This document shows, one piece after another, positions 53,135 through 59,100 of a DNA stretch of 64,000 bases. A program made the position numbers and the translations under genes. The notes below the pieces were generated by a model. The model worked only from the letters and a program-made list of their open reading frames with translations. It was not told where the DNA came from and ran no database searches. This DNA comes from Actinostola sp. cb2023 (lineage: Eukaryota; Cnidaria; Anthozoa; Actiniaria; Actinostolidae). Where the stretch lies: the NCBI GenBank assembly GCA_033675265.1, contig JAUJYZ010000926.1, forward strand, positions 1-64,000, given 5' to 3'. The first letter of the stretch is position 1. Each line of letters begins with the position of its first letter.

Positions 53135-56100
53135 TTCTTGGAGGGTTGCGGCTTGTTGCTCGTAAGTTTTGAATTAATACACATTTTCATACCTTTTTGT
53201 TGTGATAAAAACTAACATATGACATGTAATGAACATTATAGGATGTGTGATTTGCACGTAGCTCTGAAACTATCACTAAGAGTTGAAAATTTATCAAAAA
53301 CGTTTCAACACGAACAGGGACACAACACAACTTGTTCCTTACAATGTTTTCACGAAAGGCACGAGCTAGAATGTTTTATTGTGGACAGATATTATAAATG
53401 ATAGTCATAGTAAATTATTATTTTTGTATTTTAGAGGAATTTAAACAAATTAGTGAAAATTACATGTACATGTAAGCTTATGTTTACGTTTAACAATCAT
53501 TTTGACATCAGAGGCCATTTAGTGCTTTACGTTGTTGTTATGTAGACTTGTCATCTTCCTAAATACATGTACAGTTTGCTATATTAAAAGCGCCTGTTTA
53601 TTGGTTGGTTGTTTTCTAGGAAATCCAGCACAGCCAGTAGTTGGTTTGGCTGTCATTGGACAGGTACTGACCTACATCACACTACACTTTGATATCTTGT
53701 ACACAAAATGTTTATCTGCAAACAGTTTGTAATTGTAATATTATTGTTGTGTCATGTGCACTTACAAGATAATCAGCTAAATTTTTATCTTTTCCTTCAG
53801 AGAAAATTGAGTAATTTGGCTAAGACAGGGACAGGAGGAAGGGCATCGTTTAATGGTATCTTGGCTACAGTGTTTGGTGCTACTGGTTTTATTGGTAGAT
53901 ACCTGGTCAACAGGCTATGTATGTATGCCATTGTCTACATTATATAAGCTGTATTATGTGTCATTTTACCATATAAGGGCAAGAGACCATGCAAAATATG
54001 CCAGCGTATTACACAGTAGCTTGCAAGCGTGTGCAAAACATAGCAAAAATGGCTCAAAAACTTCACAAAACAAAGGAACAAAATCAATTGTGGAATAATA
54101 AACCCCTTATTTGATGGTTTGACAGATAATACTTGAGGACATTTTACTCATTGCTCGTGTTTTTCCTCGCCCTACAGGCTAAGAAAAATGCTATGCACTA
54201 TGCAACTCATAAAATATCTGCACATATTATCTGTCAAACCATCAAATAATCTTATTAACGGCCTTACGGGAAGTTATGGACCGAGTTTTTTCTCATGGCC
54301 TTATTTATGGCCCAAGCGCGTAGCGCGCAGGCCATAAAAAGTGGGGGGAAACGAGGATCCATAACTTCCAGTACGGACCGAGCAAGCGAGGTTAATAAGA
54401 TATTTATTATATTGCTTTTCCTTACTTTCCTGTTTTCAGCGGGCCGTACGGGAAGTTACGGCCTGCTAATTGACCAATAAGAGCGCACATAGTATCTGTG
54501 CTATATAATAATCCTGATTACTGATTGTCTTTCTTTGTCACTGTTGTTATGCTCTATTTCAGGGATTACCGATACATATATACATATATGGTTATAAGCC
54601 CACCTGTCTGCTAACAAAAATTTCCTTCCTTCCGGTTATAAGCCCTCCCGGTTATAAGCCCCAACCCCTTCCCACCCCCCCCCCCAGTTATATTGTATTG
54701 TAAGCCCCCTTCATTTACTCCTCCCCAAACAGGGTACCATATACAGGAAACAATAATCAGGCAATTAGGTGTACGTAGCAAACGAGGCTGATAGAATCCA
54801 GTAGTATACGGTAGCTCATTGCTTGAAAATCCACTCAGATTATATTTTTTTCTGAGCATATTCACATTTAAAAACTTTGTATGAATGCTGTTTAGCTAAA
54901 AATGGTCACGATTTTAAAAATTGTTTTGTAAATACAAAACAAGTCCCCCCAGTTATAAGCCCCCAGATTATAAGCCCACCACAAAACCCTTACGAAATTA
55001 TATAAGCCCAGGGCTTATAACCGGGATTCTATGGTATGTGTTGTTGCTACATCTGTCATTGTTGTTGTTGTCCTTATTATTGATTATGCTGCTGTTGTTT
55101 TTGCAACATTAATATAATGTTCTCATGATTTGTTGATAATGTTTGTATTAATGATGTGTGTTTTTAGGTAGGGAAGGCACACAGCTGACAGTACCTTACA
55201 GAGGAGATCCACATGATGTTAGACATATACGGCTAATGGGTGAACTAGGACAGATTAACTTCTTTGTAAGTAAATACTTAGAACTGAAGACAGAGTCATG
55301 CATGTAGTAAGGGTACACAGGGGGTGGGGGAAGGCACACAGCTGACAGTACCTTACAGAGGAGATCCACATGATGTTAGACATATACGGCTAATGGGTGA
55401 ACTAGGACAGATTAACTTCTTTGTAAGTAAATACTTAGAACTGAAGACAGAGTCATGCATGTAGTAAGGGTACACAGGGGGTGGGGGAAGGCACACAGCT
55501 CTTACAGAGGAGATCCACATGATGTTAGACATATACGGCTAATGGGTGAACTAGGACAGATTAACTTCTTTGTAAGTAAATACTTAGAACTGAAGACAGA
55601 GTCATGCATGTAGTAAGGGTACACAGGGGGTGGGGGAAGGCACACAGCTGACAGTACCTTATAGAGGAGATCCACATGATGTTAGACATATATACGGCTA
55701 ATGGGTGAACTAGGACAGATTAACTTCTTTGTAAGTAAATACTTAGAACTGAAGACAGAGTCATGCATGTAGTAAGGGTACACAGGGGGTGGGGGAAGGC
55801 ACACAGCTGACAGTACCTTACAGAGGAGATCCACATGATGTTAGACATATACGGCTAATGGGTGAACTAGGACAGATTAACTTCTTTGTAAGTAAATACT
55901 TAGAACTGAAGACAGAGTCATGCATGTAGTAAGGGTACACAGGGGGTGGGGGAAGGCACACAGCTGACAGTACCTTACAGAGGAGATCCACATGATGTTA
56001 GACATATACGGCTAATGGGTGAACTAGGACAGATTAACTTCTTTGTAAGTAAATACTTAGAACTGAAGACAGAGTCATGCATGTATTAAGGGACACAGGG

Positions 56101-59100
56101 GGTGGGGGAAGGGGACACAGGGGGTGGGGGAAGGCACACAGCTGACAGTACCTTACAGAGGAGATCCACATGATGTTAGACATATACGGCTAATGGGTGA
56201 ACTAGGACAGATTAACTTCTTTGTAAGTAAATACTTAGAACTGAAGACAGAGTCATGCATGTAGTAAGGGGACACAGGGGGTGGGGGAAGGGGACACAGG
56301 GGGTGGGGGAAGGCACACAGCTGACAGTACCTTACAGAGGAGATCCACATGATGTTAGACATATACGGCTAATGGGTGAACTAGGACAGATTAACTTCTT
56401 TGTAAGTAAATACTTAGAACTGAAGACAGAGTCATGCATGTAGTAAGGGTACACAGGGGGTGGGGGAAGGCACACAGCTCTTACAGAGGAGATCCACATG
56501 ATGTTAGACATATACGGCTAATGGGTGAACTAGGACAGATTAACTTCTTTGTAAGTAAATACTTAGAACTGAAGACAGAGTCATGCATGTAGTAAGGGTA
56601 CACAGGGGGTGGGGGAAGGCACACAGCTGACAGTACCTTACAGAGGAGATCCACATGATGTTAGACATATACGGCTAATGGGTGAACTAGGACAGATTAA
56701 CTTCTTTGTAAGTAAATGCTTAGAACTGAAGACAGAGTCATGCATGTAGTAAGGGGACACAGTGGGTAGGGGAAGGCACACAGCTGACAGTACCTTACAG
56801 AGGAGATCCACATGATGTTAGACATATACGGCTAATGGGTGAACTAGGACAGATTAACTTCTTTGTAAGTAAATGCTTAGAACTGAAGACAGAGTCATGC
56901 ATGTAGTAAGGGGACACAGTGGGTGGGGGAAGGCACACAGCTGACAGTACCTTACAGAGGAAATCCACATGATGTTAGACATATACGGCTAATGGGTGAA
57001 CTACGTAGGACAGATTAACTTCTTTGTAAGTAAATGCTTAGAACTGAAGACAGAGTCATGCATGTAAAACATGCAAGGGGACACAGTGGGTGGGGGAAGG
57101 CACACAGCTGACAGTACCTTACAGAGGAGATCCACATGATGTTAGACATATACGGCTAATGGGTGAACTAGGACAGATTAACTTCTTTGTAAGTAAATGC
57201 TTAGAACTGAAGACAGAGTCATGCATGTAGTAAGGGGACACAGTGGGTGGGGGAAGGCACACAGCTGACAGTACCTTACAGAGGAAATCCACATGATGTT
57301 AGACATATACGGCTAATGGGTGAACTAGGACAGATTAACTTCTTTGTAAGTAAATGCTTAGAACTGAAGACAGAGTCATGCATGTAGTAAGGGGACACAG
57401 TGGGTGGGGGAAGGCACACAGCTGACAGTACCTTACAGAGGAGATCCACATGATGTTAGACATATACGGCTAATGGGTGAACTAGGACAGATTAACTTCT
57501 TTGTAAGTAAATGCTTAGAACTGAAGACAGAGTCATGCATGTAGTAAGGGGACACTGACAGTGGGTGGGGGAAGGCACACAGCTGACAGTACCTTACAGA
57601 GGAAATCCACATGATGTTAGACATATACGGCTAATGGGTGAACTAGGACAGATTAACTTCTTTGTAAGTAAATGCTTAGAACTGAAGACAGAGTCATGCA
57701 TGTAGTAAGGGGACACAGTGGGTGGGGGAAGGCACACAGCTGACAGTACCTTACAGAGGAGATCCACATGATGTTAGACATATATGGCTAATGGGTGAAC
57801 TAGGACAGATTAACTTCTTTGTAAGTAAATACTTAGAACTGAAGACAGAGTCATACATGTAGTAAGGGTACACAGGGGGTAGGGGAAGGCACACAGCTGA
57901 CAGTACCTTACAGAGGAAATCCACATGATGTTAGACATATACGGCTAATGGGTGAACTAGGACAGATTAACTTCTTTGTAAGTAAATACTTAGAACTGAA
58001 GACAGAGTCATGCATGTAGTAAGGGGACACAGGGGGTGGGGGAAGGCACACAGCTGACAGTACCTTATAGAGGAGATCCACATGATGTTAGACATATACG
58101 GCTAATGGGTGAACTAGGACAGATTAACTTCTTTGTAAGTAAATGCTTAGAACTGAAGACAGAGTCATGCATGTAGTAAGGGTACACAGGGGGTAGGGGA
58201 AGGCACACAGCTGACAGTACCTTACAGAGGAGATCCACATGATGTTAGACATATACGGCTAATGGGTGAACTAGGACAGATTAACTTCTTTGTAAGTAAA
58301 TGCTTAGAACTGAAGACAGAGTCATGCATGTAGTAAGGGTACACAGGGGGTGGGGGAAGGGTACACAGGGGGTGGGGGAAGGGTACACAGGTGGGTGGGG
58401 GAGGGGGGGGCACAGGGGGTGGGGGAAAGGGGCACAGGGGGTGGGGGAGGTTTTCTACAAAATGTTCAATTGTGTTTATAATCTGATTGGCTGTTACCCG
58501 TGTTTGAAACACAATAATGACGTTACAGTTGTATTTCTCATAAAAGAAATATAGAACGTTTTTCCGAGTTTATGCAAACACTCGAGGGTTTGCACTTTGG
58601 GAGAAGTCTTGTGCTCTGTGTAAAACCTCGCCTACGACTCGGTTTTACACATCAGCTCTTGACTTCTCCCAGCTCCCCCTCAGGCTATACAAACACGGAA
58701 AACGTTTTATGTTTCTTACAATGTAGATGAAGTATAGTAATGTGCCTGTATTAATGGCAGGATTATCACCTGAAAGACCCTGAATCCATTGCTAAGATGG
58801 TTAAATATTCCCATACTGTTGTCAACTTGATAGGAAAAGACTTTGAAACAAGGTATTACAGTGTATTTGTGTGTTGTCAATGTGTATCAAGGTATGATAT
58901 GTAATAGATACAATATGAGCGGCCGATCTGTATGGGATTACGGCTCGAGTTTGTAAATCCCATACAAATCAGACGCGAATATTGTATCTGATTTATCGAA
59001 TCCAATGACGCATAAGTGGATTTTTTACTGTAATTTGGATGATAGGAAACAGTTTGGCCGAGAAAATCCAAGTTAAAGTTGAATGCAAATGAGGACGATT

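Follow-up and report, generated by a model that had tools for sequence, protein, structure and literature searches.

Introduction

The closest described counterparts of the structure reported here are the mirage minisatellites of amphioxus, tandem repeats lying across an exon-intron boundary, which have been described in Adh3, TnC, the globin genes BflGb6 and BflGb9, and PGBD5 (PMC3087553, PMC3902484). According to these reports their units can be up to 150-160 bp long, splicing is not disturbed, and a role in intron gain has been proposed (PMC3087553, PMC3902484). The repeat analysed here is located in the NDUFA9 gene of Actinostola sp. cb2023, a vent (deep-sea) anemone whose genome is described in PMC10803348. 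The stretch studied, called the window below, comprises bases 1-64000 of contig C891 (352,262 bp) of the 424-Mb assembly. In it, a 157-bp unit containing almost all of NDUFA9 exon 4 is repeated 20 times head to tail.

The NDUFA9 array fits the structural definition of a mirage. As in amphioxus, each unit crosses from exon into intron, with 90 nt from exon 4, the donor and 67 intronic nt, and the 20 head-to-tail units are highly similar (91-100% identical to the query used to search the assembly). The differences are that this case is in a cnidarian, not in a cephalochordate, that the unit includes 90 of the 98 nt of the exon, and that there are 20 units, whereas 6 and 3 are given for two haplotypes of BflGb6. 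Moreover, in NDUFA9 the boundary unit joins in homogenisation (unit 1 equals units 2, 5 and 8), whereas the cluster edges of BflGb6 are reported to be excluded from it; this exclusion was seen in BflGb6 and is not taken here as strictly defining mirages. No report of mirages in Cnidaria was found in the literature searched, although differently worded reports may have been missed. As far as the literature found shows, the NDUFA9 array would be a mirage in a new phylum, with an unusually complete exon in its unit.

In working exon duplications each copy has an acceptor and a donor, and the copies have usually diverged; the NDUFA9 copies, in contrast, are near-identical and have no acceptor. The likeness to the tandem exon duplications and mutually exclusive exons treated in PMC9013439 is that extra copies of a coding exon stand beside the original. 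A further relative is the minisatellite of IFI6 (6-16), which gives several splice donors (Turri 1995, as cited in PMC4526556). There too the repeat is at an exon end; its units are reported to serve as donors and the downstream ones are said to be used, unlike in NDUFA9, where translation continued beyond the donor of any of the 20 units would reach an in-frame stop within 13-14 codons.

The explanation that we consider highly probable is that the array belongs to the mirage-type minisatellites, having originated as a tandem repeat over the boundary of exon 4 and intron 4 of NDUFA9, and that its extra copies are silent.

The exon 4 array of NDUFA9

The initial annotation assigned the gene to NDUFA9, the 39 kDa subunit of complex I of the respiratory chain, and this assignment holds: a joined translation of 96 amino acids matches solved 39 kDa/NDUFA9 chains (best E=1.2e-30). 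The gene has 12 exons (53128-64137, plus strand) and 11 GT-AG introns. Coding exons 1-11 are whole in the window and exon 12 begins there (53128-64000), ending at 64137, outside the window. The coding sequence of 1119 nt is an uninterrupted frame of 372 amino acids, and the protein is 71% identical to that of Nematostella. All 29 protein matches reported for the assembly are on C891, so NDUFA9 is apparently single-copy.

The genuine exon 4 (55168-55265, plus strand) is 98 nt long, runs from phase 1 to phase 0, and is bordered by the acceptor tgtttttag/GTAGGG and the donor TTT/gtaagt. It is followed by intron 4 (55266-58760, 3495 nt). Tandem Repeats Finder (TRF) placed an array at 55171-58368 with a period of 157, 20.1 copies, 92% matches and a score of 4919. 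Counting gave 20 starts of the exon part, from 55176 to 58202, and 20 TTCTTTgtaagtaaat donors. When exon 4 together with 65 intronic nt was used as DNA query against the whole assembly, at least 20 matches were obtained, every reported one in the C891 array; none of the reported matches was on a second contig of this one collapsed assembly. The copy number in the initial annotation, 20 units with 19 extra ones in intron 4, was confirmed in the assembly.

Aligned by units, the array extends from 55176 to 58358 on the plus strand. Each unit comprises the 3'-terminal 90 nt of exon 4 together with the gtaagt donor and 67 intronic nt, which include a 22-nt G-rich motif. Unit 1 (u1) is the real exon, and the 19 extra copies (55333-58358) are all within intron 4. 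The deposited protein QZH41_015303 (P0001) was the gene's top protein match, and the residues RE that open it are encoded by u1 alone among the 20 units. The donor reads TTTgtaagt and is intact in 20 of 20 units, and the frame is kept in 15 of the 19 extra copies, in line with the earlier statement that most copies preserve both. The frame is broken in u3 (exon part 55490-55571) and u9 (56469-56550) by a common 8-nt loss, in u4 (55639-55730) by two additional bases, AT, and in u12 (56932-57025) by four. The 22-nt motif closes the units; it is normally single, double in u6 and u7, and altered by an insertion in u15. The array ends at 58358 (58368 according to TRF) and passes into a 22-bp G-rich minisatellite of about five copies, which TRF and the unit alignment place at its 3' edge (58335 to about 58450). 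This minisatellite has G5 runs and could in principle form G-quadruplexes, which may promote instability of the array. Elsewhere in the gene, intron 5 carries a perfect (CTTG)64 microsatellite (window 59388-59642, 100% matches).

Since the sequence comes from a PacBio plus Illumina assembly made with DBG2OLC (PMC10803348), it had to be considered that the array is an assembly artefact, or its copy number wrong, and that the true locus has one or few copies of exon 4. The noisy PacBio reads, this type of assembly and the identity of u1, u2, u5 and u8 would fit such an error. However, the PacBio library had 20-kb inserts (PMC10803348) and was able to span 3.2 kb, and similar arrays were found at unrelated loci (see below). 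Single copies (u4, u12, u15 and u17) have private variants and others are patterned; simple assembly stutter is therefore unlikely. On this evidence an artefact appears improbable, and the presence of the exon 4 array in intron 4 is regarded as confirmed.

Splicing of the extra copies

The extra copies could be alternative in-frame cassettes that add repeats of 34 residues to the protein, or they could tune its dose via message decay, either through the frame-broken copies or through a 43-nt cryptic exon. The first such hypothetical cassette (55321-55422, plus strand) is 102 nt long and reads cacag/GGGGTG...TTCTTT. The length of 105 bp assumed in the initial annotation has to be corrected: 14 of the 18 measured copies would give 102 nt, and the others 94, 94, 104 and 106 nt. 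(These 18 are the copies whose acceptor-like site fits the search pattern; at the 19th, which precedes u16, the junction is altered, and this site was left out.) The cassette lengths and the 20 intact donors speak for the use of the copies as exons, as does a cryptic acceptor within the units, whose score is in the range of some real ones.

The acceptors point in the opposite direction. The cacag sites of the copies are preceded by only 2-6 pyrimidines in 17 positions with no run longer than one (18 of 18 measured), whereas the 11 real NDUFA9 acceptors have 9-15 pyrimidines in 17 positions and runs of 3-14. The lack of a pyrimidine tract, from which it had been suggested earlier that the copies may be silent, is thereby borne out. 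The copies have no acceptor and no pyrimidine tract because the left edge of the repeat falls at the start of the exon. A splice-site matrix built from the 11 NDUFA9 introns gave a less clear division: the cassettes scored -5.4 or lower, compared with 12.3 to -3.7 for the real sites when each was left out. Thus a donor is present in 20 of 20 units, but a separate acceptor to go with it was not found, as all 18 measured acceptor-like sites are without a pyrimidine run.

The substitution pattern does not suggest that the copies are kept as coding sequence either. In the 90 columns of the exon part there are one silent and two replacement substitutions and three frame-breaking indel events, and four of the 19 copies are frame-broken. 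Substitution density does not differ significantly between exon columns (3/90) and intron columns (6/67; Fisher P=0.17), counts that omit differences inside the misaligned indel stretches of u3/u9, u6, u12 and u15. Selection on the units is not supported by this comparison, and the pattern looks neutral. With only about nine distinct substitutions per 157 columns, the intactness of the donors proves little.

Two further observations argue against cassettes. A cassette inserted after residue 98 would land in the NAD(P)-binding fold, the Epimerase match covering residues 49-202. Related species, to which the initial annotation had looked for comparison, gave an answer at the level of the proteins aligned: the exon 4 segment is present once in each of 13 relatives (picked from 1101 matching proteins). 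The deposited gene model also has a single exon 4; it was derived from homology and de novo predictions and used no RNA (PMC10803348). In view of the missing pyrimidine tract, the frame-broken copies and the neutral substitution pattern, use of the copies as cassette exons was rejected as very unlikely. The extra copies of exon 4 are probably silent and not working exons.

The least probable explanation is that the donors themselves form an array with a role in splicing, as landing sites for U1 or as a sink that either promotes or slows the excision of intron 4. In its favour, there are 20 equal strong donors within one intron, and the human IFI6/6-16 minisatellite, as cited in PMC4526556, is a precedent for donors supplied in this way. 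Against it, the copies show no sign of constraint, the RNA fold of one unit (55266-55422) is unremarkable, with equal or better folding in 165 of 200 shuffles (z=+0.84), and undisturbed splicing is reported for the amphioxus mirages (PMC3087553).

If the copies are silent, splicing could proceed as follows. Without an acceptor they would not be recognised as exons, the real acceptor would pair with the first donor, and exon 4 would be joined to exon 5, so that the extra copies would leave as part of one intron of 3495 nt. The copies would then have no function of their own, and the array would persist as near-neutral intron content.

Origin and growth of the array

The real exon 4 unit is identical to u2, u5 and u8 over 157 bp. 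A complex deletion is common to u3 and u9, while u12, u14, u16 and u18 alternate with another type in a two-unit pattern, and u10-u16 share further bases. The most uniform units are on the 5' side of the array. These observations agree with the recent expansion or homogenisation proposed in the initial annotation. Because of the shared-variant patterns, growth by exchange of single units and of multi-unit blocks appears likely. As exon 4 equals u2, u5 and u8, we infer that it either exchanged recently with the array or seeded its newest growth. It is possible that the copies serve as a reservoir for gene conversion, as suggested earlier, but there is no sign of a variant copy ever having passed into exon 4.

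The start of exon 4 resembles the intronic 22-bp motif (GGTAGGGAAGGCACACAG versus GGTGGGGGAAGGGTACACAG), and it is plausible that this resemblance caused the first misalignment. The array may accordingly be pictured to have arisen by a first duplication in which the opening bases of exon 4 became linked to the similar G-rich 22-bp minisatellite of intron 4. The resulting unit would have comprised almost the whole of exon 4 and its donor, without acceptor or pyrimidine tract. Growth to 20 units would have followed via slippage or unequal exchange, involving single units as well as multi-unit blocks, with the real exon, as unit 1, sharing in or seeding the newest growth.

Other mirages in the assembly

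A second mirage is present in the window. It is an 84-bp tandem duplication (24033-24206, plus strand) that carries the acceptor and the initial 43-49 nt of an exon in a DIS3L-like gene (PDB match 4.1e-15), with exon starts at 24074 and 24158 and 3 of 84 bases differing between the repeats. The first acceptor, if used, would meet an in-frame TAG (frame read by eye).

Exon matches elsewhere in the assembly were surveyed for such structures. They were chosen regardless of repeats, TRF was run, and arrays nearby were read; arrays that lay close to a match and contained no splice site were not counted (C859, C578, C1594 and two of C1285). The matches are profile matches and not curated exons, and a few of them hold stops or may span an intron. 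For the myosin head (PF00063; 65 of 183 first-look candidates scored) there were 81 matches, of which 77 were examined, 52 in a first set (50 wholly in one fetched piece and two straddling pieces, the latter with no array near) and 25 in a second. The four left out, on the minus strand of C361, are apparently mirror images of plus-strand ones. These mirror-image matches (C361:10189-18362, minus, and 44604-53053, plus) are on a 107-kb contig and could reflect an inverted duplication or an assembly palindrome.

Mirages were found at three of the 77 myosin matches, on C519, C831 and C888. In C519 (L036 5355-9522) the end of the exon and its donor are repeated through a 4064-nt myosin intron in units of about 45 bp; there are 68 exact TTTGGCAGGT including the real one, and TRF gave 89 copies. 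The C519 junction tgtgtctttggcag/gtatac is also acceptor-like, and each unit resembles the site of a zero-length exon (recursive splicing). In C831 (L031 7062-7275, minus strand) about 87 nt of the 3' end of a myosin exon together with the donor are duplicated in a 104-bp unit. In C888 (C888:557001-558100; L054 1-500) an 83-bp unit (TRF, 100% matches) carries the acceptor together with some 19 nt of a myosin exon; this segment is present at least six times, including the real one, and six is a minimum because the fetched piece starts inside the array. For TCP-1 (PF00118), 20 of 64 matches were examined and none had a mirage; arrays were near three of them, none with a splice site. No run of near-identical exon matches like that of NDUFA9 was seen by eye in the 81-row myosin or the 64-row TCP-1 table, and no other near-whole-exon array was seen among the DIS3L-like, myosin and TCP-1 cases.

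The combined rate was 3/97 surveyed matches (interval 0.6-8.8%). Scaled to the 20,812 genes with 6.31 exons per gene given in PMC10803348 it would correspond to about 4,000 exons, a rough figure from two gene families. Mirages thus look recurrent in the repeat-rich genome of Actinostola. The share of sequence occupied by TRF arrays is 27% in the window and 25% in 190 kb from elsewhere; for arrays with a period of at least 30 and at least three copies the values are 16% and 17%. A preference of arrays for splice sites found no support, as three mirages at the 154 ends of the 77 myosin matches are far below the coverage of 20% (period at least 20; binomial P about 1e-11). Arrays are underrepresented at splice borders, which is what selection would be expected to produce; the test is rough, since arrays cluster, match ends mark exon ends inexactly, and the coverage value comes from just the first 190 kb. 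With repeats abundant and exon ends array-depleted, no special targeting is needed, and the data fit a process in which minisatellites are born everywhere and those at exon borders survive when splicing still works. All five mirages seen capture, by their anatomy, only one splice site, a pattern that short units often give anyway; cryptic sites were scored for NDUFA9 only, and the cag/gt of C519 is itself acceptor-like.

Apart from these repeats, the window contains adjacent long open frames at 9165-13803 that by eye resemble a reverse transcriptase and a tyrosine recombinase and may represent a DIRS-like element.

Discussion

Several points weigh against a silent mirage at NDUFA9. The silence of the copies is deduced from sequence, and the matrix of 11 introns is weak: the exon 5 acceptor scores -3.7 when left out, close to the best cassette at -5.4. 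Within the units, the site GATGTTAG/ACATAT has a score of -0.3 and would yield the 43-nt frame-breaking exon mentioned above, so low-level mis-splicing is possible. The similarity between the exon start and the 22-bp motif is mild, being as high in 14 of 1000 shuffles and in 107 of 2673 other 40-nt stretches. The copy number depends on a single assembly, the edge unit takes part in homogenisation, unlike in amphioxus BflGb6, and the 20 TCP-1 exon matches were all free of mirages.

A broader proposal is offered tentatively, with somewhat less than even confidence. Mirages may be born genome-wide and continuously, affecting some percent of the exons (thousands), and may be filtered by splicing to arrays with one site; in NDUFA9 the working exon would be in exchange with the array, so that the array could feed coding changes.

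For exon definition, the NDUFA9 locus provides an extreme natural test: its 19 near-perfect exon bodies have perfect donors and lack acceptors. Such exons may be miscounted by gene-model and short-read pipelines. For the mirages reported from cephalochordates, a part in the creation of new introns has been proposed (PMC3087553). Their occurrence in a sea anemone, at several per about a hundred conserved exon matches, would make the intron-gain route testable in a second, distant lineage.

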